NCBI GenBank assembly: GCA_018267875.1
Contig: JAFDXP010000067.1
Coordinates: forward strand, 1-64,000
Source: Bacteroidota bacterium
Lineage (GTDB): Bacteria > Bacteroidota > Bacteroidia > Chitinophagales > Chitinophagaceae
Reading direction: 5' to 3'
Length of the DNA: 64,000 bases
Numbering within the stretch: the first letter of the stretch is position 1; every line of letters starts with the position of its first letter. Shown here piece by piece: positions 669 to 50,420 of the stretch. The position numbers were made by a program, and so were the translations under genes. The notes under the pieces are model-generated. The model saw only the letters and a program-made list of their open reading frames with translations. It ran no database searches and was not told where the DNA came from.

Positions 669-739
669 TCCGTACCAGCACGTATATAGAAATACCATTT
701 TATAGGTATTTAAAGGGCACAAATTTAAAATTAATTTTG
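669..739 (+). promoter_or_regulatory. Candidate promoter with two operator-like dyads upstream of the SUMF1/repeat-protein pair
   Basis: A TAATTTTG -7 element at 732-739 lies 19 nt after TTTA (709-712), close to the Bacteroidota TTTG/TAnnTTTG pattern. An inverted repeat AATACC-N8-GGTATT (691-710) overlaps the -33 position. A second near-palindrome, CGTACCAGCACG, lies at 671-682. The same elements recur at identical spacing at 14411-14481. The -7 element ends 20 nt before the ATG at 760. The region lies between divergent rpsU and the 760 gene, so an effect on rpsU is also possible. Confidence 0.65.
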
Positions 740-759
740 CATTAATAAAATCCACTTTT

Positions 760-2166
760 ATGAAGAAGTTATTATCTACATGTCTAATCCTTTTAGGATT
801 AAGCCCAACTCTAAGGGCAAACAACATTCAAGTAAACAATGTTACGCTGACCGGACAAAATGTTACGAGTCATTTTTCCATTGTCAATTTTGATGTAAAC
901 TGGGATCACAGTTGGCGAACTTCCAGCAACGAAGCAAACTATGACGGCGCATGGGTTTTCGTCAAGTATAGAAAAGCAAACAGTAGTTTATGGCAACATG
1001 CAACCATTAACTATGCTACGGGAGGCACTGCGGCTGCTTGTGGAAATACAGAGCCTACCGGTTCTACTTTACAAACTGCATCAGATGGAAAAGGTATATG
1101 GATATACAGAAATGCAAATGGATCAGGGAATGTAACCTTTAGTGGTGCAGGATTACGCTGGAATTATGGCACAGATGGTGTGTTAGATAATGATAGTGTT
1201 GAAGTGCGTGTATATGCCGTAGAATTGGTTTATTGTACGCAAGGGGCATTTTCTCTTGGAACAGGCGGAACTGAAAATTTTTATTTCCGTAATGGAAACA
1301 ATACAAGTCCTTTCCAAGTCACCTCAGAAAATGCCATTTCCATTGGTAGTGGATCCGGAAATCTTTATTATACAGGCGGTGCTGGCGATGGATTAGGACC
1401 CGTTCCTGCTGCCTTCCCAAAAGGATATAAAGCATTTTGGGTTATGAAACATGAGTTTAGCCAGCAACTATATGCTGATTTCTTAAACACATTAGATGCC
1501 ACCAGAGCTACAACAAGAAATATGGGAATTCCCGGCACTGCCAACAATTTCGTACCCACCAATCCTGAACGTGCATTAGGAAGCTTTAGCGGAACAGATT
1601 TTCTCGCTCTGCTTGACTGGATGGCTATGCGACCAATGACTGAATTGGAGTATGAAAAAGCTGCTCGTGGCTATAACATAGCACCGGTACCCAATGAATA
1701 CGCATGGGGTAATACCACAATTTCAAGCACCTACGCTGTTTTTAATGCAGGAACAGCCAACGAAACACCTCAACAAGGAAATGCAACTTACTATCTTTAT
1801 CCTACTTATTTGAATCGTCCTGCAAGGTGCGGCACATGGGCAAGAGATACATCTTTAACCCGTGAACATGCAGGAGCCAGTTACTATGGCGTACTGGAGC
1901 TTTCAGGAAATATTTCGGAATATTGTGTTACAGTGGGAAATACATTTGGAAGAGCCTATACCGGCTTGCATGGTGATGGAAATCTTGACAATAATGGTGA
2001 TGCCAATGTTACAAACTGGAGCGGTGGCTCTGTGGGTGTTCGTGGCGGCTCTTATGGCGATGCGTTCAATCAACTCATGGTTTCTGATCGTTATTATGCC
2101 AATGCAATTAATAACACCACGCGCTCGGCATCTTGTGGTGGACGAGGGGTTCGTACAGCAGAATAA
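760..2166 (+). CDS. Secreted SUMF1/C-type-lectin-fold protein (formylglycine-generating-enzyme-like, probably non-catalytic)
   Basis: The 468-residue protein has a signal peptide (MKKLLSTCLILLGLSPTLRA). Residues about 22-190 form an uncharacterised beta-rich region. Residues about 215-468 carry a SUMF1/FGE-sulfatase domain, recognised by 'FWVMKHEFSQQLYADFLN', 'RPMTELEYEKAARGY', 'YGVLELSGNISEYC' and 'GVRGGSYGD', ending 'GGRGVRTAE'. In true formylglycine-generating enzymes the segment after GGS(W/Y) carries two copper-binding cysteines. Here it reads GGSYGDAFNQLMVSDRYY with none, so sulfatase-activating chemistry is unlikely. No type IX sorting domain is visible at the C terminus. Residues 206-211 (GGAGDG) resemble the repeat motif of the protein encoded 23 nt downstream, suggesting a functional pair. 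Surface ligand binding is inference. Confidence 0.8.
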   Translation: MKKLLSTCLILLGLSPTLRANNIQVNNVTLTGQNVTSHFSIVNFDVNWDHSWRTSSNEANYDGAWVFVKYRKANSSLWQHATINYATGGTAAACGNTEPTGSTLQTASDGKGIWIYRNANGSGNVTFSGAGLRWNYGTDGVLDNDSVEVRVYAVELVYCTQGAFSLGTGGTENFYFRNGNNTSPFQVTSENAISIGSGSGNLYYTGGAGDGLGPVPAAFPKGYKAFWVMKHEFSQQLYADFLNTLDATRATTRNMGIPGTANNFVPTNPERALGSFSGTDFLALLDWMAMRPMTELEYEKAARGYNIAPVPNEYAWGNTTISSTYAVFNAGTANETPQQGNATYYLYPTYLNRPARCGTWARDTSLTREHAGASYYGVLELSGNISEYCVTVGNTFGRAYTGLHGDGNLDNNGDANVTNWSGGSVGVRGGSYGDAFNQLMVSDRYYANAINNTTRSASCGGRGVRTAE

Positions 2167-2189
2167 GTTCACCCTTAAACACAATTCAG

Positions 2190-3176
2190 ATGAAACGAAT
2201 ATTATTTGGGCTGATCCTTTTAACCATTGCTGGATTAGCCCGAGCTCAAAATAATCCCATTTTTTATGGTGGTCTCGCAGATGGGTTTGCAACCAAAAAT
2301 CTAAAGCAATCTATGACCAATAGTAAGGCTGGAGGCATAGCAGATGGCTGGGGAACAAACCGTTATCTTCAATCCATAGTTCATGGCAATGCGGGTGGTA
2401 TGGCTGATGGCTGGGCTACATCCAATTATCTCCCAAATATGACCAACGCCTTTGCCGGTGGATTTTCAGATGGCTGGACTTCGTCAAACTATTTGCAACC
2501 AATAACCAACAACAATGCCGGAGGTATGGCGGATGGCTGGGCTGCTCAAAGAACAATTCCTTATAAAAGTCCCACAAACAAAGGCGGAATGGGCGATGGC
2601 TGGGCGAGCAATTATCATGCTCTCTCACCATTACCAATCAATTTCTTGCGCTTTGAAGCCACGAAGGACAAACAAAGGGTTCGCATCAATTGGGAAATGG
2701 GTGACGAAGATGATGTGATGCAGTATGAAGTTCAACGAAGCGACAAGGCTGTTGTTTTTGATCCAATTGGTACGGTTGATCGAAATGATGTACTGAATAA
2801 ACACTATGTATTTTATGATGAAAAACCAATTTCGGGACACAACTATTATCGCTTACGAGTATGGAAAAAAGATGGCACTTCCGAATTTACGCCTACTCGA
2901 TTAGTGATTTTTGATAAGGTAATTGTAACAACCATGAACCTATATCCGAATCCGGCAAATGATAAGCTATTTGTTGAGCTGCCACAAGATTTTTCAGGCA
3001 CTCATGTGGTTTTCAACATTTATGATGCTGCAGGTAAAATGGTGTATCAGCAAAAAAATGTATTGCAAATAACACCAGTTGAATTAAATGTAGCTACGTT
3101 GGCAGCCGGTAATTATTTTGTGCATATCGGCACAGAAAATAATAGTGCTGTAGCCAAATTTGTCATAGTGAGATAG
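2190..3176 (+). CDS. Secreted protein with GGxxDGW repeats and type IX sorting domain
   Basis: The start is ATG 2190 (MKRILFGLILLTIAGLARAQ), a clear signal peptide; the frame stays open upstream but overlaps the previous gene. Residues 27-146 hold six copies of a 21-residue repeat starting GG-x-x-DG-(W/F). Residues about 150-250 look like a fibronectin/Ig-type beta domain ('LRFEATKDKQRVRINWEM', 'YYRLRVWKKDG'). The C-terminal 80 residues form a type A sorting domain ('LYPNPANDKLFVELPQ', 'YDAAGKMV', 'LAAGNYFVHI'), the export signal removed by PorU. It follows the SUMF1-fold gene by 23 nt and is probably co-transcribed. The repeats contain no cysteine. Their function is not known to me. Confidence 0.8.
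   Translation: MKRILFGLILLTIAGLARAQNNPIFYGGLADGFATKNLKQSMTNSKAGGIADGWGTNRYLQSIVHGNAGGMADGWATSNYLPNMTNAFAGGFSDGWTSSNYLQPITNNNAGGMADGWAAQRTIPYKSPTNKGGMGDGWASNYHALSPLPINFLRFEATKDKQRVRINWEMGDEDDVMQYEVQRSDKAVVFDPIGTVDRNDVLNKHYVFYDEKPISGHNYYRLRVWKKDGTSEFTPTRLVIFDKVIVTTMNLYPNPANDKLFVELPQDFSGTHVVFNIYDAAGKMVYQQKNVLQITPVELNVATLAAGNYFVHIGTENNSAVAKFVIVR
2268..2627 (+). repeat. Six tandem 63-bp coding repeats (GGxxDGW, 21 residues each)
   Basis: The repeat units begin with GGLADGF, GGIADGW, GGMADGW, GGFSDGW, GGMADGW and GGMGDGW, spaced exactly 21 residues apart; the last unit is shorter (about 15 residues). GG and DG are invariant, the aromatic is W in five of six units, and the last third of each unit varies. 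Confidence 0.9.
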
Positions 3177-3212: not shown

Positions 3213-3243
3213 AAAACAGCCGTTCTTATAGAGCGGCTGTTTT
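3213..3243. terminator. Bidirectional intrinsic terminator
   Basis: A 14-bp stem (3213-3226 with 3230-3243, one G-U pair, 3-nt loop) has A-rich and T-rich flanks. It lies between the convergent genes ending at 3176 (+) and 3271 (-), so it can end both transcripts. Confidence 0.85.
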
Positions 3244-3925: not shown

Positions 3926-4168
3926 AAAGTTGGTTGTCGTTTGTTTTGTTTGACGATGCAAAAATTAGACGGCGGTTAAAATGCTGCAATCTTTAGCCCC
4001 CTGCTTAACGACAGCTTTGCAACCGCTTAACAAGTCGTTTACAAATTTCAATGCTGTAACATGATAGAATATACATTCTGGTTGAGTAGGAGAGTTCAAT
4101 AAATAATTCATTTAGATGGAACGGAGAGAAAACAAAATTTTTCTAGAACTTAGCGTGTTATTCTACTT
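3926..4168. other. Intergenic region between divergent secreted-protein and lipoprotein genes
   Basis: The only structure I see is a further T/G-rich, imperfect copy of the leader repeat near 3930-3955 and a short dyad AGAAT-ATAC-ATTCT near 4069-4082. No convincing -33/-7 pair or terminator was recognised. Confidence 0.4.
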
Positions 4169-4747
4169 ATGAAACGGGGATATTCCATTATTCTGTTTGC
4201 CGCTTTAGCAACCCTTGTCTTTTTTTCTTGTAAAAAATGGACAGATCCGGCTGCACCAAAAGACCCAAGACTCAATGATCACCACTATTGCAATGATCCA
4301 TTGGCTGTAAACTACAATTGGAATTTTCCGGGTGTTGCGGATAGCACTGTTTGCATCTATCCTTCGGATTTGTTTAAGGGCACTTATTCATTCACCGATT
4401 CCATTTATGATAACCAACAAAACTTAGATACAGTAAACCCCCGAAAAACTTATCTTTTATACTTTCTGCCGGTTACAAAATACAAGTTTCGGGTTGTAGG
4501 TTTTTGTGGGGCTACAGATTCATTGAAATTTACGGCAGAACGAAGTACTTATCGTGCCAATGCAGATACAACCATTTTCCAATTCGATACCATCAAAGTT
4601 TATGGTCAATATTTCTGTCGCCAATTAGATACCATGACGGGCTATTTCCAAAAAAACAGAAATGACTCTACCTTAATGAACATTCAATTTCAGGTAGTGA
4701 GCGATACAGGTACATATTTTCACAAAGGCACTGCTGTAAAGAATTAG
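4169..4747 (+). CDS. Lipoprotein of unknown function
   Basis: The 192-residue protein has a lipoprotein signal peptide with a cysteine at residue 21 (LVFFSC followed by KKW), so it should be lipidated. The mature part is polar, with 'HHYCNDPLAVNYNWNFPGVADSTVCIYPSDLF', a pattern seen in Bacteroidota surface proteins that carry Ca-binding-like 'A.NYN..A...D.SC.Y' motifs, and later aromatic beta-strand segments. It ends 9 nt before the riboflavin synthase ATG and may be co-transcribed with it, but no functional link is apparent. I do not recognise a named family. Confidence 0.75.
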   Translation: MKRGYSIILFAALATLVFFSCKKWTDPAAPKDPRLNDHHYCNDPLAVNYNWNFPGVADSTVCIYPSDLFKGTYSFTDSIYDNQQNLDTVNPRKTYLLYFLPVTKYKFRVVGFCGATDSLKFTAERSTYRANADTTIFQFDTIKVYGQYFCRQLDTMTGYFQKNRNDSTLMNIQFQVVSDTGTYFHKGTAVKN

Positions 4748-4756
4748 TTTTGCTGC

Positions 4757-5347
4757 ATGTTTACAGGAATTGTAGAACAGATTGGCTTGATCTCAAGCAT
4801 TACACAGCATGGCGCTAATCTTGATTTCTGGATAGAAAGTCCTTTTACTGCTGAATTGAAAATTGATCAATCAGTAGCTCATAATGGCGTTTGCTTAACA
4901 GTGGTTGAAGTAAGCGATCAAAAATATAGGGTTACGGCCGTGGCTGAAACACTACAAAAAACAACGTTGAATCAGTGGAAACCTCAACAATTTGTCAATT
5001 TAGAACGGGCTATACAATTGGGAGCTCGATTAGATGGACATTTTGTGCAAGGACACGTGGACTCAACGGGCGTTTGCCTTTCCAGACAAGCATTAGAGGG
5101 TAGTTATCTATTTCGTTTTTCATTTCCGGAAACTTTTTCAGCATTCATTATTGAAAAGGGGTCAATTTGTATCAATGGTGTAAGCTTGACAGCCTTTCAA
5201 CTGGGTCGTACAGATTTTATGGTAACCATTATTCCTTATACTTTCCAGCATACAAATTTTCAATGGTTGAAAGAAGGAGATTTTGTAAATTTAGAATTTG
5301 ATGTTTTGGGGAAATATTTGCTTCGGGCTAAAGAAATAGGTATTTGA
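4757..5347 (+). CDS. ribE: Riboflavin synthase, alpha subunit
   Basis: The 196-residue protein begins with the family signature MFTGIVEQIG and has the two tandem lumazine-binding domains. 'SVAHNGVCLTVVEV' marks the first and 'KGSICINGVSLTAFQL' the second; 'LDGHFVQGHVDSTG' lies between them. The enzyme dismutates two 6,7-dimethyl-8-ribityllumazine molecules to riboflavin in the cytosol. Length and motifs are normal. It lies between a lipoprotein gene (9-nt gap) and a CrtI-like oxidoreductase (39-nt gap), not with other rib genes. No FMN riboswitch was recognised upstream. Confidence 0.95.
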   Translation: MFTGIVEQIGLISSITQHGANLDFWIESPFTAELKIDQSVAHNGVCLTVVEVSDQKYRVTAVAETLQKTTLNQWKPQQFVNLERAIQLGARLDGHFVQGHVDSTGVCLSRQALEGSYLFRFSFPETFSAFIIEKGSICINGVSLTAFQLGRTDFMVTIIPYTFQHTNFQWLKEGDFVNLEFDVLGKYLLRAKEIGI

Positions 5348-5386
5348 CACTTGCTATCAGTATCTTGCACGAATTACCCCCCCTTT

Positions 5387-7105
5387 ATGCAAAAAATTGA
5401 ACTTAAGCAAAGTTACGATGTAGTGATTATTGGTGCCGGCGTTGGCGGGCTAACTGCAGCAGCCTTATTAAGCAAAGCTGGTTTTTCTGTTTGTGTTTTA
5501 GAGCGTGAACCCCACGTTGGCGGCTATCTTGCAGGTTTTCGTAGAAAACATTTCAGGTTCGATACGGCTATCCATTGGCTCAACCAATGTATGCCAGGTG
5601 GCATGGCTGCCAATATTTTTGATATTCTTGGTAGCGATCATCCTTGGGCTATTCCGCAAAAAAAAATTAAACGATACAAAGGGGATGACTATGAATATTT
5701 ACTTACCGATAACCCCGATGACTTAAAAAAGCAATGGCAACAAGAGTTTCCGGAAGATAAAAAAGGAATTGAACGATTTTTCAAAGATGCCAAAATACTC
5801 GGTCGTGCTTTTGCTAACTTCGGTCATATTTTTCGTAGTGAAGAAACGATGAGCTTTTTTGAAAAGCTACATAATAAAAGAAACCTGTTGAAGTTTGGTT
5901 TGCCTTTCATAAAACATCTTCGATTTTCAGGCGAAGAAGGAATTAAAAAAGGACTAAGGAAATATTTCAAAAACGAAAAACTACAACGGGTTTTCAGTGC
6001 TGATACCGAATTGCTTTCTTGTTTAGTGCCAATTGGTTGGGCGTATTATGGCGACTATCAAAGTCCGCCTAAGGGCGGTGGGCAAGTTATTCCGGAATGG
6101 ATGCAACACATTGTAGAGTTTTATGGTAATCATGTTTTTTTCCGTTGCTCGGTAGATAAAATTTTGCTGGAAGGCGACAAAGCTAAAGGTGTAAAATTTA
6201 ATTGTAGAGGCACCAATTTTGAAGTGCAAAGCCGCTATGTTATTGCTGCTTGTGATGTAGAAATGCTTTACGATAAAATGCTCCCATTAAACACCATCAG
6301 CGAAAAATTCAGATCAAAATTATCTGATGCTGAATTATACAGCTCTTCCGTAACCGTGGCTGTCGCCTTAGATTGCCCTGCTGAAGATTTGGGATTTGGA
6401 GAAGAGTTTATACATATTTCCAGTGAAAAAGTTTCTCGTGCAGACCATACAGGCGGCGATCCATGGAAAAGTGAAATTTCAATTTTGGCACCTTCATTAA
6501 GAGATAAATCATTAGCACCAGAGGGCTGTGGTACCTTGACCTTATTTATGCCCGCCTATATGAATTTTAAAAACAATTGGCTTACCGAGCAAGATGCAGA
6601 AGGTAATTATCTGCGCAATGATGCATATAAGGAATTGAAAAATCAAATTGCCGAAGCTTTGATCGAACGAGTAGAAAAGATTTTAGCTCCTGATTTACGA
6701 AAGCATATTTTGTTTTATGACGTTGCTACACCTGTAACACATTGGCGATATACTGGAAATAAAAATGGAACTATGATGGGTGCAAAACCGGGCAGAAAAA
6801 ATATGCAAGGAAAAGTAGCCCATTACAAAACACCCATTCAAAATTTATACTTAGGCGGACATTGGGCAGAGCTGGGTGGAGGTGTACCAATTGCCGTAAA
6901 AGCAGGCGCAAATGCCGTTTTATTGATTCTAAAAAAAGAAAAGCCCGATACCTTTAAGGCACTCTCAAAATATATGGATGGTAAAATTTCAGTCGAAGCC
7001 TTATTAACAAGCGGTGTTTTCCTTCCATACGACAATTCATGGAAGCAAGCACTGACACCAGCTCAAAAGTTGTCTTTGCGAAAGGAAGATACCAAGGAAA
7101 ATTAA
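5387..7105 (+). CDS. CrtI/carotenoid isomerase-like FAD-dependent oxidoreductase
   Basis: ATG 5387 gives 572 residues. The frame could start at TTG 5351, but the extra residues (SCTNYPPF) look non-coding. An N-terminal dinucleotide-binding motif 'YDVVIIGAGVGGLTAAALLSK' (GxGxxG) with 'VLEREPHVGGYLAGFR' is followed by 'FDTAIHWLNQC', as in phytoene desaturase, CrtISO and retinol saturase-like proteins. The C-terminal 'NLYLGGHWAELGGGVPIAVKAG' is the second FAD-contact motif of this family. It probably reduces, desaturates or isomerises a polyene or retinoid-like lipid; the substrate cannot be read from sequence. No other carotenoid gene is next to it, which weakens a pure carotenoid assignment. 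Confidence 0.8.
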   Translation: MQKIELKQSYDVVIIGAGVGGLTAAALLSKAGFSVCVLEREPHVGGYLAGFRRKHFRFDTAIHWLNQCMPGGMAANIFDILGSDHPWAIPQKKIKRYKGDDYEYLLTDNPDDLKKQWQQEFPEDKKGIERFFKDAKILGRAFANFGHIFRSEETMSFFEKLHNKRNLLKFGLPFIKHLRFSGEEGIKKGLRKYFKNEKLQRVFSADTELLSCLVPIGWAYYGDYQSPPKGGGQVIPEWMQHIVEFYGNHVFFRCSVDKILLEGDKAKGVKFNCRGTNFEVQSRYVIAACDVEMLYDKMLPLNTISEKFRSKLSDAELYSSSVTVAVALDCPAEDLGFGEEFIHISSEKVSRADHTGGDPWKSEISILAPSLRDKSLAPEGCGTLTLFMPAYMNFKNNWLTEQDAEGNYLRNDAYKELKNQIAEALIERVEKILAPDLRKHILFYDVATPVTHWRYTGNKNGTMMGAKPGRKNMQGKVAHYKTPIQNLYLGGHWAELGGGVPIAVKAGANAVLLILKKEKPDTFKALSKYMDGKISVEALLTSGVFLPYDNSWKQALTPAQKLSLRKEDTKEN

Positions 7106-32717: not shown

Positions 32718-32949
32718 AGAGATTCAAAAAGAGGATAGATTCTTAAAAGCGTTGAATACGCTAAAACAACTTTGAAGCTGCCTACATCAGATATGTTGCA
32801 AAACAAGCAACGAATCTTTTTGATGAAACTCTACCTTTTCTTTTTTTGTAAGAAAGCAGCTTTTTAATTCCATACTATATCCAGTATATTTTCTGTGAGT
32901 TTGCCTATATCTATCTTAGTTTTACTTGATTATTTCAAATAAAAGAACA

Positions 32950-34893
32950 ATGAATCATCTTGCTCGCATTTTTATCCTGCTTTTCATGGGTGTTATTGGC
33001 AGTCATGCTCAGACCATCAACCCTGAAATATGCAAAGGATATCCCCTTCAAAAAGCAGCAGCAAAAACTACAGTAGCAGATCCCGCAGAAGATAATTATG
33101 ATATAAAATGGGTGAAGTTCGATCTGAAAATGACCAATTTAAACACTTCTATCAGTGGAAGTGTAATGACCAAAGCAACAGTTACTAATGGTCCTTTATC
33201 ATCTTATGTATTTGAACTAAACGCCCTATACACCGTTGATTCGGTACTAATCAATGGCATAAATTGTGCTTTTCAAAACACTGGAGATGTTTGGACAGTG
33301 TCTCTTCCCAATTCAATTCCCCAAAACTTATTTTTCGTTGCACAAGTCTTTTATCATGGTGCTATTTCAAGTGGCTCTGCCTTTTTTAGTACCGGCATAC
33401 GCACTCAATCTTCACCCTCTTGGGGAAACATGGTAACATACACCATGAGCGAACCATACGAAGCAAAAGACTGGTGGCCAACGAAGCAATCCTTAACAGA
33501 CAAAATAGACTCGGCAGACATTTGGATAACCGTTCCTTCTTCATTGAAAGCAGGCAGCAACGGGCGTTTACAAGCCATTACCACATTGTCCGGAAGCCTA
33601 TCTCGATATGAATGGGAGACAAAATACCCCATTGATTATTATCTGCTTTCGGTAGCTGTTTCAAACTACACAGAATATTCTTTCTATGTTCCATTTACTG
33701 GGACGAATGATTCGATGCTTGTTCAAAATTACATTTATAACAACCCCCAATTTCTTTCTACTTATAAAAGTAAAATTGACTCGGTTGGAATCATGCTTCA
33801 ATATTTATCAAAGCTATTTGGTCGTTATCCTTTTTGGAAAGAAAAATATGGACATTGTGTAGCCCCGTTGAATGGAGGAATGGAGCATCAAACGATGACT
33901 ACTTTAGGAAATTTTGGCACCACTCTTTCTGTTCATGAATTAGGGCATCAATGGTTTGGTGATAACGTTACTTGTGGTAGTTGGCAAGATATATGGCTAA
34001 ATGAAGGTTTTGCTTCCTATATCGAATATCTGTTCGTAGAAAAATTTTGGAATGTTGGATTGGGCTTACAATACATGACTAACAAACACAACAACATTCT
34101 TCTTTTTGATACTTCTACTGTTTATGTAGCTGACACCACCAATGAAAGCCGGATTTTTGATAGCCGTTTTACTTATGACAAAGGAGCTTCAGCCCTACAT
34201 ACGCTCAGATTTGTTTTTAATAATGATAGCTTATTCTTTGCCGGCTTACGTATCTATCAAAATCAATTTTCAGGAAAAACGGCTGTCACTGCAGATTTCA
34301 AAGCTGTTATGCAACAAACTCTCGGACAAAATTTAGATACTTTTTTCACTCAATGGATTTACCGTAAAGGGCATCCAGTTTTTAATATTCAGTGGAATCA
34401 AGTAGGCAAAACAGTTATGTTTCGTATAAACCAAACCACATCTGACCCTTCTGTAAACTATTTTACTACACCCGTTGAGGTGATGTTTCATTCACCGCAA
34501 GGTGATACATTGGTGCGCATATATCAAAACCAAAACCCACAAGTATTCAAATTCAACTGGAACAAATCATCTACTGGGCTTACTGTTGACCCAAACGATT
34601 GGTTGCTTGATGCACCTGGAAGCATAACTTTTGATGCAACGCTGAGTATAGATCAAGCCATCAACAAACAGCTAACGATCTATCCAAATCCTACTTCTAC
34701 TTTATGGCAAATAGATCCAGTGAAAGTCGGTACTACAGCCTCATTCACTGACTTGTCAGGGCATGAAATATGGAGCAAAAAAATGCAATCTACACAACTG
34801 ATAATACCGGCACAGCATTTACCGGCAGGAATTTATTTTTTGAAACTAAATGACAATAACCAAATTACAACATGGAAACTCATCAAACAATAA
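32950..34893 (+). CDS. Secreted M1-family aminopeptidase with type IX sorting domain (copy 1)
   Basis: ATG 32950 gives 647 residues with a signal peptide ending at SHAQ. An N-terminal M1 beta domain is followed by the exopeptidase motif 'GGMEHQTM' (His where GxMEN has Asn). The zinc site is HELGH (H329, E330, H333) with E352 in 'WLNEGFASY', the correct 18-residue spacing, and 'FTYDKGASALHTLRF' supplies the catalytic Tyr region. The last 80 residues form a sorting domain ('TIYPNPTSTLWQI', 'LPAGIYFLKLND'). It should remove N-terminal residues from peptides outside the cell. Its stop overlaps the next, paralogous gene by 22 nt, so the two are translationally linked. Confidence 0.92.
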   Translation: MNHLARIFILLFMGVIGSHAQTINPEICKGYPLQKAAAKTTVADPAEDNYDIKWVKFDLKMTNLNTSISGSVMTKATVTNGPLSSYVFELNALYTVDSVLINGINCAFQNTGDVWTVSLPNSIPQNLFFVAQVFYHGAISSGSAFFSTGIRTQSSPSWGNMVTYTMSEPYEAKDWWPTKQSLTDKIDSADIWITVPSSLKAGSNGRLQAITTLSGSLSRYEWETKYPIDYYLLSVAVSNYTEYSFYVPFTGTNDSMLVQNYIYNNPQFLSTYKSKIDSVGIMLQYLSKLFGRYPFWKEKYGHCVAPLNGGMEHQTMTTLGNFGTTLSVHELGHQWFGDNVTCGSWQDIWLNEGFASYIEYLFVEKFWNVGLGLQYMTNKHNNILLFDTSTVYVADTTNESRIFDSRFTYDKGASALHTLRFVFNNDSLFFAGLRIYQNQFSGKTAVTADFKAVMQQTLGQNLDTFFTQWIYRKGHPVFNIQWNQVGKTVMFRINQTTSDPSVNYFTTPVEVMFHSPQGDTLVRIYQNQNPQVFKFNWNKSSTGLTVDPNDWLLDAPGSITFDATLSIDQAINKQLTIYPNPTSTLWQIDPVKVGTTASFTDLSGHEIWSKKMQSTQLIIPAQHLPAGIYFLKLNDNNQITTWKLIKQ

Positions 34894-36833
34894 ATCGTGC
34901 TTTAGGATTGCTGCTTTATACTTTGTTTTCTTTCACTGTAATGATTTCAAAGGCACAAACCAATTGCAACAAGGTGCAGCAACAAATAAGCTATGCAAAG
35001 ACAACAGTTGCCAATTTGCAAGAAGACGATTATGATGTGCAATACGTAAAATTGGATTTGAAGGTATCCAATGTATCTACTGCCATTGCAGGATCAGCCA
35101 CTACCATAGCCAAAGTAGTTGCCCCATTTCTTATGGATTACTTTTTTGAATTGAGCAATCAATTGACAATAGATTCTGCTCTGGTAAATGGACAAAAGTT
35201 GATGGCCGTATCAGTAGCACCTTATGTTTGGAGGGTTTCTTTACCTACCGGACTTACACAGAATTCAATTTTTTACGTTAACATCTATTATCATGGTTCG
35301 CCTTCAGGTGGAACCGGCTTTTTCACGAATGGGTTGTTACAACAAACCGATGGAATCTATGGTGTTTCTGTAACACACACGGTAAGTGCAGCCATACATA
35401 GTCGAGATTGGTGGCCTTGCAAACAATCGCTTACCGACAAAATAGACTCTGCTGACATTTGGATAACAGTGCCTAACGGGCTTAAAGTAGCAGGTAATGG
35501 CTTGTTGAAAAATATTACAGCTCAACCTACCGGAAACCGCTATGAATGGGCATCTCGATATCCAGCTGATTATTATTTATTATCGTTTGCAGTTGCCCCT
35601 TATACGGAATACAATTATCAAATGCACTTTTCAGGGAGCACAGATTCGATGTTGATTCAAAATTATCTGTACAATGTGCCATCCATTTTACAACAACATC
35701 AAGGGCAATTAGATTCTCTTGCTCAGTTGATCAATTATTTTTCAAGCCTATTTGGAAGATATCCCTTTTACAAAGAGAAATTTGGTGTTTGCATGACTCC
35801 TTTAGCCGGTGGAATGGAAAACCAAACAATGGTTTCGTTAGGTTCACTAGATATTCAATTGATGGCACATGAACTTTCGCATCAATGGTGGGGGGACAAT
35901 GTAACTTGTCAATCGTTAGCTGACATGTGGCTAAACGAAGGCTGGGCAACCTATTGTGAACAACTTTTCTTAGAACATTTTAGAGGAGCAGTAGCAGCAA
36001 AAGCACAACGAACATCCGTATTTAATGATATTTTGCTTACAAACATTGGCTCCGTTTATGTAGATGACACTACTCAAGAAGGTCGAATTTATAGTTCTCG
36101 ATTTACTTACAACAAAGGTGCAGCAGTTGCACACATGCTTCGTTATGTAGTGAATAACGATGCCCTATATTTTCTGGGTCTAAAGAACTATCATCAACAA
36201 TTCAAGTTTTCAACTGCCACTACAAACGATCTGAAAAATGTTATGAATCAGGCTACAGGCTTGAGTCTTGATACCTTTTTTCAACAATGGATTTTTGGCG
36301 AGGGATTTCCTAAACACAACATCAGTTGGGCGCAAAGTGGAAATAATGTAGTGGTAAAATTGGATCAATTTGGTAGCAAGCCATCATCTGTTTCGGTATT
36401 CAAAATGCCGATTGACATACAGCTCAAATCCGCATCGGGCGACACTTTGATTCGAGTGATGAATGATCGTGCAACACAGTATTATGTTTTCCAATGGAAT
36501 CCACAAATGAACGGAATTGTATTAGACCCAAACGATCAAATTTTGAATAAAGTGCTTTCTATTTCTAACGACAATAGCATTTTAGACATCCAGGCAATCA
36601 ACGAGCTACCCATTCAAATATTCCCAAACCCAAGCTTAGACTACTGGACTGTTCAACATATAAAACCCGGCACTTTGCTTAAATTGTTTGACGTAACAGG
36701 AAAATTGCTTTTTCAGAAAACTGCCCAAAGCGATAGCTACAATATTCCTTCAAAATCCTTGCTTGGAGGAGTTTACACACTTCAAGTATGGGTTAACAAC
36801 ACACTTAGGAGTTATCAACTGATTAGGCAATAA
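34872..36833 (+). CDS. Secreted M1-family aminopeptidase with type IX sorting domain (copy 2)
   Basis: The 653-residue protein is clearly a paralogue of the preceding one along its whole length ('DWWPCKQSLTDKIDSADIWITVP' is nearly identical). The signal peptide ends near 'MISKAQ'. The zinc site is HELSH (H333, E334, H337) with E356 in 'WLNEGWATY'. The motif 'GGMENQTM' keeps the canonical Asn. The C-terminal sorting domain reads 'QIFPNPSLDYWTVQ' and 'LLGGVYTLQVWVN'. The start lies inside the upstream gene (ATG 34872, out of frame with it). Both copies keep all zinc and catalytic residues, so both are probably active with different preferences. Confidence 0.92.
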   Translation: METHQTINRALGLLLYTLFSFTVMISKAQTNCNKVQQQISYAKTTVANLQEDDYDVQYVKLDLKVSNVSTAIAGSATTIAKVVAPFLMDYFFELSNQLTIDSALVNGQKLMAVSVAPYVWRVSLPTGLTQNSIFYVNIYYHGSPSGGTGFFTNGLLQQTDGIYGVSVTHTVSAAIHSRDWWPCKQSLTDKIDSADIWITVPNGLKVAGNGLLKNITAQPTGNRYEWASRYPADYYLLSFAVAPYTEYNYQMHFSGSTDSMLIQNYLYNVPSILQQHQGQLDSLAQLINYFSSLFGRYPFYKEKFGVCMTPLAGGMENQTMVSLGSLDIQLMAHELSHQWWGDNVTCQSLADMWLNEGWATYCEQLFLEHFRGAVAAKAQRTSVFNDILLTNIGSVYVDDTTQEGRIYSSRFTYNKGAAVAHMLRYVVNNDALYFLGLKNYHQQFKFSTATTNDLKNVMNQATGLSLDTFFQQWIFGEGFPKHNISWAQSGNNVVVKLDQFGSKPSSVSVFKMPIDIQLKSASGDTLIRVMNDRATQYYVFQWNPQMNGIVLDPNDQILNKVLSISNDNSILDIQAINELPIQIFPNPSLDYWTVQHIKPGTLLKLFDVTGKLLFQKTAQSDSYNIPSKSLLGGVYTLQVWVNNTLRSYQLIRQ

Positions 36834-45127: not shown

Positions 45128-46306
45128 TTAATCCCCACTATCCGATTTTTTAAATTCATTAAAATCAAACAATAAGGAGAAACGGAAAGTGTTAGATAAG
45201 GGATTGCGATTGATGCCACTACCTGATGGAATTAAATAAGCTCCATTCAGTGTAAAGACATTCAATTTTACGCCCAAGCCAACGGTAAGATATTTACGAT
45301 CTCCTTTAGTTTTATCTTCATAAAAATACCCTGCACGTAAAGCAAATTGGTTTTGATACCAATATTCTGCACCGACAGAAATTTGAATTTCGCGTAGCTC
45401 TTCGCTAAAAGGTGCATCTACAAAAGATCCTAACATTCCTGAGACAACAGACTTGTCAGGAATATAATACTTAGGTGTACCGGTTGAACTTGTATCTTTT
45501 GGCGTAGGCACCAACAATTTATTAAAGTCCAAGCCGATAGTTACCTTGTTATATTCATCTAACGATTTAGTATAAGCAACACCCAAACCAAGATTTATGG
45601 GGATGAAATCACGTCGAGTAGAGGTATAATATATCTTCGACCCTGCATTGCTTAATACGGCTCCAAAGCTGAAATTATCAGAACGGAATTCATCAATTTC
45701 TTTGTTTTTGGTATAGTAAACGCCTAGGTCGGCAGCAAAAGCATTACCTGGCTTCACATCAGAGTTGCCACTGTACCCTACGGCAAGGGCGGAGCGAATA
45801 TAGCGAAGGCTTAATCCAACAGATAAATTTTCTGAAAGCTTTCGAGAATATCCTAAGTCAAATGCAAATTCTCTAGGTTTTCCGGTACCTGTGGCATCAC
45901 CTACATCATTTGTAAAGCTGATGTCACCTAAAGAAAAGTAGCGCAGCGATGCACTGATGGCTTGTTCATCGTTTTGTCCAAACTTCATGTAGCCGGATAC
46001 ATATCCTAGCCAAATGTCGGGTACAAGATCCTTTAGCCATGGTGTGTAAGTAAATGACACACCAAATTTCTTAGGAGTAAAAGGCATTTTAGCTACGTTC
46101 CAATATTGTGCATTGGCATCGGGGGAAATTGCCAAACCTATATCGCCCATAGCTCCGGAACGAGCATCTGGTGAGATACGAAGAAAAGGAACTGCTGTAG
46201 TGATAGTATTGATGTTGGAGCCATTAACATTGGATTTTTGAGCCAATGCCTCGTTGGTTAGACCCGTTAATAATCCCAAACCAATAAGAGCAAAGTGTTT
46301 TGCCAT
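45128..46306 (-). CDS. porV: Type IX secretion outer-membrane protein PorV
   Basis: ATG 46306 gives 392 residues with a signal peptide ending near ALAQ. The hallmark 'PFLRISPDARSGAMGDIGLAISPDANAQYWNVAKMPF' sits at the N terminus of the mature FadL-like 14-strand barrel. The protein ends in a barrel strand ('FRFSLLFDFNEF') plus a short charged tail. PorV captures substrates leaving the SprA translocon and delivers them to the sortase PorU. It lies 105 nt downstream of porU on the same strand and precedes a strong terminator. Confidence 0.95.
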   Translation of the reverse strand: MAKHFALIGLGLLTGLTNEALAQKSNVNGSNINTITTAVPFLRISPDARSGAMGDIGLAISPDANAQYWNVAKMPFTPKKFGVSFTYTPWLKDLVPDIWLGYVSGYMKFGQNDEQAISASLRYFSLGDISFTNDVGDATGTGKPREFAFDLGYSRKLSENLSVGLSLRYIRSALAVGYSGNSDVKPGNAFAADLGVYYTKNKEIDEFRSDNFSFGAVLSNAGSKIYYTSTRRDFIPINLGLGVAYTKSLDEYNKVTIGLDFNKLLVPTPKDTSSTGTPKYYIPDKSVVSGMLGSFVDAPFSEELREIQISVGAEYWYQNQFALRAGYFYEDKTKGDRKYLTVGLGVKLNVFTLNGAYLIPSGSGINRNPLSNTFRFSLLFDFNEFKKSDSGD

Positions 46307-46411
46307 TCTGTATTCGTTTATTAAAAAGTTTTGCAAAGGTATTTAATTATTGTGCTGAATGAACACTTTGTTCCGGCAATATGCTAATCGGTTGCGTTCA
46401 TCAATAAGCAA

Positions 46412-49400
46412 CTAACGTATCAACACTAATTTTTGGTATGCAGTCGCTTGAATTCCTTGCTTGGTTGTGATAGATAATTTGTAAACATATAGGCCGGCAG
46501 GTGCTTGTGCACCATTATTGCTAGTGCCATCCCAAATAATTTCGTTACTACGACTACCGGAAGGCGTAAAGTCATCATCTAATGTTCGCACTAAATAGCC
46601 GGATGTACTATAAATATTTATTTGGACTTTTAGTTCTTCACCCGGATGGTTGTGTTCGAAAACGAAATGGGTTTTGTCATGAAAGGGATTTGGATATGAT
46701 ATCAAGTTGTTTATCTGAACAATTTGTCCATTGACAACTACAAAATTTACGGTTCCTTCACCAGAATTGTTGAACATATCCCAAGCTTTTACCAGCAGCG
46801 AGTGTTTGCCTTCGCTTAAACCGCTAATGGGAAAGTTGACATAACCGTGTTGATAATCATTTGGAGCAGTTTCATAATAGTCATTCAAAACATAAGGATT
46901 GGCAACATCGCCATCTAACACGGCGGTAAGATTATGTCCAATTCCATTTCCCGAAACATTGATACCGGATTGGTCAAATAATTTCACAAATAATGTGGTA
47001 TTGCTTCCGGTAATGCCTCCATCTTTAAACAAACTATCATTGATGAAAGGTTGTACAAGCGGACCATCTGTATCAACTACTACTACATCTGAAAATCCAC
47101 CTATATTCGTATTAGTATCAGCACCGGCAGCATCTGTTATTCCGTTTTCAGCATAATAGCTAATTTTTCCCTTCCCAAAATCATAATTTAAGTCTTTAGG
47201 AGCAATAAAGCTAAAAGAAAAGCGTCCATTCATAATAGTAGCCTTCCCTTTGTAAATGATGCTATTCTGTACTTGAAAATTACGCGGTGGGCCAGTGAGC
47301 GTACTGGCTATTCCAGGCTTATCATATATGGTGATGTATGCACGACCATTAAACGTTGTCATCACATTGCCATTATCGTCCTTTACACTTCCTGAAATGC
47401 TGTATTTGCCCAATGCTTTGATAGTATCTGTTTTGGTTGCGGAATATCCATTCAAAATTGAGTCTGTCGTTACATTATAGCGAGGGAATGAAGGCATAAG
47501 TGCAGGGTCGCCCAACAGAGCAAATTTTCTGTAGTTGTTTCGTGTAAACACATCCATGTTAGGAAAGATGTAGGTTGCATTTTTGCTCATTCTGAATGCA
47601 TCTCCGAATGTCAACCATGAACTGTTGTTCTTTTGGAAAAAAGTTGTGAGAAAGTTTACATTAAGTTGATGGTTTAAAAATTGATACACAAGCTGAGTAG
47701 TTGTGAGCAAGGCTATTGCTCCACCATCCGGTTTCACAACCAACAATTCGCCGGCAGAAGTCAGTGCCGGATCGTCATATTTACTGAATGTACAAGTAGC
47801 TGTAACCATTATGGGTAATTTGGTATCATTTTTCCAACTATTGAAATCATCTTGTGTCAAAATGCGTTTAGCGGATAATGTAGTTGGGCTTCCATGTCCG
47901 TTGTAGTTCATCAGAAAGGTTCCCTTAAATACTTGATCATTAATCAATTTATTGGCATCAGGACAACGTACACCACCGGGAGTTGATACGGTTGGCAAAG
48001 CAGAAATATAAACCTTTGTATCATTGTACAAGTCAGATTTCCCACTGATAGTTCCAGCCATTGCCTCACCATCATCAAAGTGAATATTATCATCGCCATT
48101 ATCCGCCATGATGGTAGTGGAAAGCCGCCATGGGCCTAATGAAACTGCACTGGCATACTTAATGATCTTGTCGGCAATTTTATTGGCTGCATCAGCAGAA
48201 GCTACCGGCAAACGCCCTACACTAATATCCATAGTATTTACAATGGCTATATTGCTGTTGGGTTGAACGCCTTCAATGTTTTCAAAATCATCTAAAAAGG
48301 CAAAAAAGTCGTCAGAGCAATAGCCGTTAATTGCATCGTCAGATTCTGCTGTTTCATAAGTAGGTACATAATTAGAATTGTTTGGAACTCTGTTTTTATA
48401 ATCATAAGAAGCATCACCTAAAAGCAATAAATGGCGAGGCATTTTAGTGGTATCAGAGCCTGCATTTTTATAAAGCATTTTGGCAAAATTTCTAATAGCA
48501 CCAATATCATTAGAACCGGAAGCAAATTCATTGTTTACTTGATCTGTGGTAGCAACGGTAACGCGCATTGCATCATGCTGACGATGAAAATCAGCCAACT
48601 TATTGGCACCATCCAAAAAGTCAGGATAAGTAACGATAATCAAATCCGTAACACCTGTTCCATGTAAATTTTGATTTGTTACTTTCTGAACAAAATCCGG
48701 CTTACTAAAATTAGAACCATCAAAAGCTACATATTGACGCAACTGGGAAGCATCTCGATTGAAATTGAAAACTGATCCTTGAAGGCTACCATTGACACGA
48801 ATTGGTGACAGCGGATTGGTGATGTCCCAAATATTTGTATTTCCATTGGCATTTTGAACAGTGAAAGCTGCCATATTCCCATTTGCTACACTATTCCAAT
48901 CCTGAAAAACAGTAAGTCCATTTATTAAAGCAAGGGGTCGTCTATTAATCACTTCAATATAGTCCAAATAACCACGAGCAGTAGATTCGCCCGGTGCATA
49001 AGTTAGTTGAACATTTGCTACACCGCCGATCGTTGGGGCACGAAATTCTCCATAATATGAAACAACGGCTATATCATTATTGGCTGCTCCATAAATAGAG
49101 GCATTTGCAATAGAGTTCCCATTTATAGAAATATTAAAACCATTGTTGTTAGCCTGGCTTTTTGAGCCTATTGAAATTCGAAATAAGGCAGTGTCATTAC
49201 TCATTGTGCTAAACGAAAAGGTACGCGTGGCCTGCCTTCCACCATCTACACCAAAATCTTCACCCCACCATTTTTTTCCAAATTTTCCTAAGTTGACTAA
49301 GTCCTTTTCATAAACCTGATAATCATCAAAGGTGCCTACACTGACATTAGATGATGGCAAGCTTGTTTCTGATTGTATTCGTTTACCTACACCATTATCG

Positions 49401-50164
49401 AATGAAATGAAATAATAGCTCTTGTCTTCATACAAATTTGTGCGGTGACGAAAAGTGTGTTGAGCCGTATCCATAGCCCATTCTAAAGGCCCATTTGCAT
49501 AAAAATTGATAAAATCATTCTGATCAAACTTGTTGTCACCGCCATCATGAACATCAATAGCATTTTCAACCAAATCATCGGGATAAGGCACTGCATTATT
49601 TTCATAAAGCATGGTGCCGCCATTTCCATACAGGCGGATATTACGGGTGTCAATGCTTGCAGGATCTATGCCTAATTTATTTTTCAAAAAATCATAGTCT
49701 AATTTATAAATGCCTCGATCTTTGACGGATATTTTATACCAAGTTCCCGTTGCTAACACGCTTTGTGCGGTAGTAGTAGTCTTTAATGCCACCTTAGAAG
49801 GTTGGTCTGATTCTGTAATCTCTAAAGAAAAAGATTGAAGTTGTTGAACACCATTGGTAGTCTTTAGGAAAACAGGGATTTTGACAAATAAAAATGGTCG
49901 TTTTCTATCCATCCCAAGTGCGCTTTCCATTTGATCGAATGAAGTCGCAACATTTTGTTTAGTTAAACTGATGGCATCAACTAAAAGTGGGTTAATAATT
50001 TTCATTGTGGGCAATTCAAAATTCTTCAACCAAATCCTTTCTACAACAAAGCCATTTTTTGTGTCAGCATTATTGACCTCAAAGGAATGAACGCTTACTT
50101 CTGCTCGGGCAAAAGCAGTACTTAGCAGCACGAATGAAAAGGATACAAGAAGTTTTGTCATCAT
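46412..50164 (-). CDS. porU: Type IX secretion sortase PorU (C25/gingipain-like peptidase)
   Basis: ATG 50164 gives 1250 residues with a signal peptide (LLVSFSFVLLSTAFARA); ATG 50161 is one codon away. An N-terminal prodomain-like region leads to the C25 caspase-like domain ('DLIIVTYPDFLDGANKLADFH', 'LLLLGDASYDYKN', 'ISVGRLPVASADAANKIADKI'). His757 in 'NYNGHGS' and Cys791 in 'TATCTFSKYDDP' form the catalytic dyad, about 34 residues apart as in gingipains. The C terminus has an FlgD-like/sorting-type domain ('SYPNPFHDKTHFVFEH'). It removes C-terminal sorting domains and attaches cargo to surface glycolipid. The open frame extends 36 codons upstream without a signal peptide, so the later start is chosen. 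Confidence 0.96.
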   Translation of the reverse strand: MMTKLLVSFSFVLLSTAFARAEVSVHSFEVNNADTKNGFVVERIWLKNFELPTMKIINPLLVDAISLTKQNVATSFDQMESALGMDRKRPFLFVKIPVFLKTTNGVQQLQSFSLEITESDQPSKVALKTTTTAQSVLATGTWYKISVKDRGIYKLDYDFLKNKLGIDPASIDTRNIRLYGNGGTMLYENNAVPYPDDLVENAIDVHDGGDNKFDQNDFINFYANGPLEWAMDTAQHTFRHRTNLYEDKSYYFISFDNGVGKRIQSETSLPSSNVSVGTFDDYQVYEKDLVNLGKFGKKWWGEDFGVDGGRQATRTFSFSTMSNDTALFRISIGSKSQANNNGFNISINGNSIANASIYGAANNDIAVVSYYGEFRAPTIGGVANVQLTYAPGESTARGYLDYIEVINRRPLALINGLTVFQDWNSVANGNMAAFTVQNANGNTNIWDITNPLSPIRVNGSLQGSVFNFNRDASQLRQYVAFDGSNFSKPDFVQKVTNQNLHGTGVTDLIIVTYPDFLDGANKLADFHRQHDAMRVTVATTDQVNNEFASGSNDIGAIRNFAKMLYKNAGSDTTKMPRHLLLLGDASYDYKNRVPNNSNYVPTYETAESDDAINGYCSDDFFAFLDDFENIEGVQPNSNIAIVNTMDISVGRLPVASADAANKIADKIIKYASAVSLGPWRLSTTIMADNGDDNIHFDDGEAMAGTISGKSDLYNDTKVYISALPTVSTPGGVRCPDANKLINDQVFKGTFLMNYNGHGSPTTLSAKRILTQDDFNSWKNDTKLPIMVTATCTFSKYDDPALTSAGELLVVKPDGGAIALLTTTQLVYQFLNHQLNVNFLTTFFQKNNSSWLTFGDAFRMSKNATYIFPNMDVFTRNNYRKFALLGDPALMPSFPRYNVTTDSILNGYSATKTDTIKALGKYSISGSVKDDNGNVMTTFNGRAYITIYDKPGIASTLTGPPRNFQVQNSIIYKGKATIMNGRFSFSFIAPKDLNYDFGKGKISYYAENGITDAAGADTNTNIGGFSDVVVVDTDGPLVQPFINDSLFKDGGITGSNTTLFVKLFDQSGINVSGNGIGHNLTAVLDGDVANPYVLNDYYETAPNDYQHGYVNFPISGLSEGKHSLLVKAWDMFNNSGEGTVNFVVVNGQIVQINNLISYPNPFHDKTHFVFEHNHPGEELKVQINIYSTSGYLVRTLDDDFTPSGSRSNEIIWDGTSNNGAQAPAGLYVYKLSITTKQGIQATAYQKLVLIR

Positions 50165-50420
50165 GTCTAATTTTGTTTTTAGGGTATAGCTCCAACCAAT
50201 CTTACCAAAATTACAGAAATAATGTAGGCAATGCTTATAGTTGGCATCTATAAAGGAGTAAACGCAATTCATAATAAATTATTATGGAATAGGCTGAAAA
50301 AAAACTTTTCACTTTTTTTTGGCACTGATTGGGCGAACGCTTGACTTTCTCAAAAGAATGCTCTAACATTGTAACACTTTTAAGATTATCAAACACGTTA
50401 GCTAATATTTTTCACTGATT

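Follow-up and report, generated by a model that had tools for sequence, protein, structure and literature searches.

Among described systems, the DGR variable proteins, with their C-type-lectin/FGE fold, resemble one half of the gene pair reported here. DGRs diversify binding sites, most of their targets are without known function or partner, and in 71% of the sequences in the main DGR target clusters no domain can be recognised beyond the variable region (PMC8144416). The first protein of the pair, P0001, is full-length homologous to DGR targets of Omnitrophota, whose variable region is the corresponding C-terminal segment, but P0001 itself is fixed and has P0002 as a dedicated GGxGDG partner; no RVT_1 reverse transcriptase was found in its genome, and a DGR there was accordingly rejected. 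P0001 also shares its fold and sequence family with the formylglycine-generating enzyme (FGE/SUMF1, PF03781); unlike that enzyme, it lacks the copper cysteines, carries an extra N-terminal beta domain and was seen in no sulfatase context. The partner resembles T9SS type A cargo in having a Por_Secre_tail and an FN3-like domain, whereas its passenger consists mostly of GGxGDG repeats and is co-inherited with a head that has no such tail. A further comparison is with the Bacteroidota surface B12 capture proteins BtuG, BtuH and DUF4465/BtuJ (PMC10404256, PMC8941943, PMC12751083, PMC13398666). In one clade the pair is found in riboswitch operons with BtuB-like, DUF5074 and DUF4465 proteins; however, the pair has a different fold and export route, and the copy described here lies outside such an operon. 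The logic that we propose may also be likened to that of cohesin-dockerin and similar scaffolds, in that a surface scaffold with short, repeated docking sites would recruit a separately encoded protein, the likeness being one of proposed logic, with putative docking.

The pair was found in a 64,000-nucleotide stretch of Chitinophagaceae DNA, hereafter the window. It belongs to a genuine, widespread two-gene module that is apparently undescribed, with no published account of a SUMF1/GGxGDG pair found in the open-access literature. As a single surface-protein pair the module is ordinary; its interest is as a family, in which DGR-type binding heads meet T9SS display, B12 uptake and a partner with a minimal motif. 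Considering how few DGR targets have a known function or partner, a strict minimal-motif partner offers a handle on the surface delivery or retention of one head family.

Architecture of the locus

The original prediction of two adjacent exported proteins stands, with both open reading frames, the gap of 23 nt between them and an N-terminal signal sequence on each confirmed (Table 1). It had also credited the pair with an unusual promoter, which we withdraw: TAATTTTG fits the usual Bacteroidota -7 box, and its pattern is not enriched, being seen 71 times across the window against 89 expected by chance. PorV and the sortase PorU are both encoded within the window, so an export route is present in the host. 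Translations from the same window, inspected by eye, also include a tandem pair of adjacent M1-aminopeptidase-like T9SS substrates (32926-36833).

Table 1. Features of the locus and of the wider window (positions in the window)
Feature	Position	Strand
TAATTTTG, ordinary Bacteroidota -7-like box, by itself not significant	732..739	+
P0001, FGE/SUMF1-fold secreted protein without T9SS tail, 468 aa	760..2166	+
Sec signal peptide of P0001	760..819	+
N-terminal beta domain of P0001	820..1254	+
GGAGDG in P0001 linker (residues 206-211), coincidental, unconserved	1375..1392	+
FGE-like domain of P0001, without copper-binding cysteines	1417..2163	+
C-terminal P0001 segment (residues 426-468) aligned with the variable region of L053, L056, L057 and L062	2035..2163	+
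P0002, GGxGDG-repeat partner, T9SS type A substrate, 328 aa from ATG 2190	2190..3176	+
Six GGxxDG[WF] motifs of P0002, period 21 residues	2268..2603	+
Ig/FN3-like domain of P0002	2640..2903	+
T9SS type A sorting domain (Por_Secre_tail) of P0002	2940..3167	+
14-bp stem, probable terminator between convergent genes	3213..3243	+
T9SS PorV (45131-46336) and sortase PorU (46415-50272)	45131..50272	-

The mature form of P0001 starts with ANN, which is kept in 89% of its homologues, and the N-terminal beta domain of the family holds the invariant or near-invariant residues W48, D62, W65, F67, K69, H80 and G112. The linker that follows has the general form LYY...GD..GPIPA.FPKGY, and a GGxGDG occurs in it only in P0001 and an 85% relative, L039. 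The GGAGDG at this point had been read as a motif common to both proteins; it is a linker coincidence that homologues do not keep, and as a feature joining P0001 and P0002 it is ruled out. A Pfam search with P0001 itself gave no FGE match. Membership in the FGE/SUMF1 fold family is nonetheless established through its homologues, 38 of 40 aligned sequences matching PF03781, and through an AF2 model of the homologue L042, which matches FGE crystal structures (E about 7e-7) and has EgtB as a structural match too; additionally, the family profile matches human FGE (E 2.5e-12).

A functional formylglycine-generating enzyme has a pair of copper-binding cysteines in its C-terminal segment, and P0001 has no such pair. 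Among 63 homologues no column is conserved as cysteine above 60%, the best reaching 60% and being absent in P0001, and the Cys segment of FGE, which we take to hold the copper cysteines, aligns with the cysteine-free RGGSYGDAFNQ of P0001. Formylglycine chemistry by P0001 is therefore very unlikely on sequence grounds, as was originally proposed. A wider catalytic role can also be considered, in which the FGE-fold protein chemically modifies GGxGDG[WFY] in its partner and the repeats are modification sites, as relatives of FGE, EgtB and PvdO oxidise their substrates. The fold, the structural matches to FGE and EgtB, the one-to-one gene pairing and the short, strictly conserved motif would all suit such an enzyme-substrate pair; however, the FGE domain has no conserved catalytic Cys or His, the sole near-invariant His, H80, sits in the other domain, and the active-site segment is DGR-hypermutated in homologues, so that we regard this explanation as quite improbable.

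P0001 is also weakly similar to GldK (E 4e-4), at 19.8 bits against an NCBIfam cut-off of 350 for the GldJ/GldK T9SS ring proteins, and the family profile matches PorK at 6e-4. These scores might suggest that the SUMF1 protein is a component of the T9SS machinery, with its neighbour as ordinary cargo, but a GldJ-like protein and PorU/PorV are encoded elsewhere in the genome, homologues in Omnitrophota and Lentisphaerota have other kinds of partner, and the distribution of the family is patchy, one same-genus genome lacking it. We rejected this role as scarcely credible.

The second protein carries six GGxxDG[WF] motifs, starting at mature residues 9, 30, 51, 72, 93 and 114 and thus exactly 21 apart. 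The repeats are real, since 20,000 shuffles of the stretch gave two motifs at most. They had been described as six exact 21-residue repeats, which holds for their number and spacing but not for their sequence, the units being 29-57% identical to one another (mean 40%). With its signal peptide, its Por_Secre_tail (E 1.5e-15) and PorU/PorV in the host, P0002 is a type IX substrate, as had been predicted, and of type A, while P0001 is tail-less. RTX (haemolysin-type) calcium repeats were considered and rejected: compared with the GGxGxDxUx nonapeptides of that class, P0002 has a period of 21 and its D one position earlier, and there is no RTX Pfam match. Pfam PF23527 ("Apicomplexa microprotein") appears on the first repeat (window 2253-2303, E 1e-4, under the cut-off) and was disregarded.

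Conservation of the gene pair

Within the order, 48 of 249 genomes have homologues of P0001, and within the phylum 27 of 396; GTDB gave 37 loci, some of them in Omnitrophota, Lentisphaerota and Verrucomicrobiota. A search of the 249 genomes with a profile of the repeats found 19 repeat genes in 16 genomes, and all 19 adjoin a SUMF1 homologue (17 downstream of it, two upstream). An independent DNA scan for AQ[FY]xGGxGDG gave 14 matches, against none for the reversed control, with 10 directly downstream of a SUMF1 homologue. The other four do not adjoin one: two lie divergently in the same cluster (G111, G099), one has its SUMF1 gene on another contig (G129), and the last (G143) is on a short contig of a genome that is 68% complete. 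In G420 a repeat match that looked like an orphan (E 3.8e-5) was dismissed as chance, there being no motif in the ORF of that stretch. Both scans therefore answer the question of whether the repeat gene regularly occurs alone, and it does not.

Looked at from the other side, a partner gene is next downstream in 48 of the 69 SUMF1 homologues with room for one, against 18 of 585 background ORFs, a partner being recognised by GGx[GAYSNE][D/R/N..]G, typically right after the signal peptide. Several of the other homologues have a partner past a DGR cassette (L053, L062), come first in a tandem array, or have variant motifs. A visible partner was not found for one deep branch (L026, L032, L038) and its relatives (L128-L130, L133), and a phylum-wide sample adds about 15 further pair loci. 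The original view that the two proteins belong together is thus borne out: the pairing of head and partner across several bacterial phyla is real and strong.

Partners range in size from a giant Ig protein down to little more than a signal peptide, one motif and a T9SS tail. The smallest, of 118-142 aa, consist of a signal peptide, one YxGGxGDG motif and the sorting tail, while in Omnitrophota the GG motif opens large Ig-like proteins. The number of GGxGDG motifs per partner varies from one to eight, a single copy standing directly after the signal peptide. The tail PF18962 is present in 22 of 23 partners as against none of 40 SUMF1 proteins. What is common to all partners is the GGxGDG motif and a route to the surface, and because this is their common denominator the partner is read as a tether or scaffold.

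The pairing could also arise without direct contact, if both proteins were parts of a larger surface structure such as an adhesin, a biofilm matrix or an uptake complex, and GGxGDG were a structural or metal-binding repeat. The two genomes with the genes in divergent operons of one cluster, the large Ig-like proteins among the partners and the FN3-like domain in P0002 are consistent with this. It is harder to reconcile with minimal partners that are almost only motif and sorting tail, and with the recurrence of the motif at the mature N-termini of proteins that are unrelated in other respects but adjoin the same head family, and we consider it rather unlikely.

Diversified, riboswitch-linked and phage-borne relatives

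At five Omnitrophota loci (L053, L056, L057, L062, L065) a second copy of the SUMF1 gene's 3' end lies downstream, and the mismatches between the copies fall nearly all at template adenines (15/17, 14/15, 18/18, 16/16 and 20/21 TR/VR mismatches). These homologues are DGR targets, whereas P0001 is not one. In L053, the locus for which the cassette was checked with profiles, MutS_I, bAvd and RT genes are followed, 4 nt after the RT, by a GGSYDG Ig-protein partner. DGRs diversify binding sites (PMC8144416), and the SUMF1 family is therefore best read as one of binding proteins. The Omnitrophota loci with a DGR targeting this family and a GG-motif Ig-like giant downstream include L053 (5463-12989), L062 (2047-13548, from Velamenicoccus archaeovorus) and L065.

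The segment of P0001 that corresponds to the variable region is not hypervariable, being 88% identical to that of L039 against 85% overall. In the DGR copies this pocket segment is less conserved than the rest of the protein (52-64% vs 70-79%), and in the riboswitch-linked clade it is more conserved (88-100% vs 78-92%), which is what a ligand-determining segment should show. Separately, in L046, L047 and L048 (Ferruginibacter/Chitinophagaceae) the equivalent segment is 50-74% identical against 76-91% for the rest, with no template repeat found in the locus.

A cobalamin riboswitch (RF00174, E 1e-16 to 1e-25) lies upstream of the SUMF1 homologue, on the same strand, at 10 loci of one Bacteroidota clade; neither the window nor 35 loci from other clades yielded one. 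The clusters of this clade also hold a BtuB-like receptor (at L160, TonB-B12 model E 6.5e-32, under the curated cut-off), BtuG-like/DUF5074 proteins, the minimal GG partner, and T9SS-exported presumed beta-propeller or DUF4465 proteins. The riboswitch together with BtuB/BtuG identifies these 10 as B12 (BtuBG) uptake loci, and the window pair is outside this group. According to PMC13398666, DUF4465 proteins are B12 binders with a link to PF16819 propellers. From gene context we infer a B12 role for the SUMF1 protein of this clade, with corrinoids as a testable ligand class. The operons look like a T9SS-based B12 capture system, apparently one that PMC10404256, PMC8941943, PMC12751083 and PMC13398666 do not describe; neither SUMF1/formylglycine nor T9SS terms turned up in these four papers. 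Individual examples are L160, L161, L162, L170, L110, L154 and L155, where a riboswitch and the SUMF1-like/GG pair occur together with T9SS tails and with BtuB-like, DUF5074, DUF4465 or propeller proteins.

The pair has also been carried by a phage. A 68-kb viral contig (IMGVR_UViG_3300031772_000023, L076) encodes a SUMF1-like protein and a GGSADG partner at 3950-6194, between genes for terminase (2.2e-77) and portal (3.5e-93), which suggests host-surface modification. A second viral scan returned the same single contig, and INPHARED phages and PLSDB plasmids gave no relatives. DGR targeting, the B12 operons and the phage-borne pair all point to ligand binding; with the missing cysteines, the diversified homologues and the uptake operons also bear out the initial suggestion that binding is likelier than catalysis for the SUMF1 protein.

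A proposed surface capture module

With the pair conserved across phyla and its relatives hypermutated by DGRs or placed in B12 operons, it looks like a reusable surface ligand-capture device. The explanation that we favour, with moderate confidence, is a conserved two-protein module in which a non-catalytic head of FGE (C-type-lectin-like) fold captures a ligand and a GGxGDG protein serves as its tether or scaffold. Ligand specificity would be set by the C-terminal pocket of the head, the segment rewritten by DGRs in the Omnitrophota homologues. The partner would be a dedicated scaffold that most likely binds the head via its GGxGDG motifs, the near-invariant N-terminal domain of the head being a possible contact site. 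Having neither a T9SS tail nor a lipid anchor of its own, the head would be carried to or held at the cell surface by the partner, which in Bacteroidota has the T9SS sorting domain. Direct docking, surface exposure and ligand binding are what we infer from the conserved pairing and its contexts. Weighing against the proposal are the subfamily in which no partner was seen, the pocket segment of P0001, which shows no unusual variability, and the B12 context, which is that of a different clade.

Structure predictions bear on the state of the repeats. In a read-through chain of L042, where two same-frame genes are joined with the stop read as a residue, the head has the FGE fold and the repeats reach pLDDT of about 50-72 with a regular strand pattern, whereas the repeats of P0002 modelled alone have pLDDT of about 30-42 and are predicted to be disordered. 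The contrast between predicted order in L042 and predicted disorder in P0002 is suggestive but confounded, the two models differing in sequence and alignment and being single chains without coordinates or inter-domain errors, so that it is not a controlled comparison.

A broader form of the ligand-capture proposal, which we put forward more tentatively as a possibility short of probable, is that GGxGDG serves as a docking code of general use. A small protein with the motif, targeted to the T9SS or anchored in some other way, would bind the head in the periplasm and export or anchor it in trans. Bacteria would gain an exchangeable surface receptor, its pocket hypermutated by DGRs in one set of lineages and tuned to corrinoids in another, and phages would spread it. 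If docking is true, the module would amount to in-trans display by the T9SS, through which binding proteins of choice could be presented on Bacteroidota.

Other members of the family depart from the simple head. By eye, SUMF1-like proteins at L054 (5893-8847) and L060 (5848-9066) appear to carry further domains, FISUMP-like and Hint (self-splicing-like), and at L054 the next gene after the extended SUMF1-like gene encodes a GGxGRGD-motif protein.
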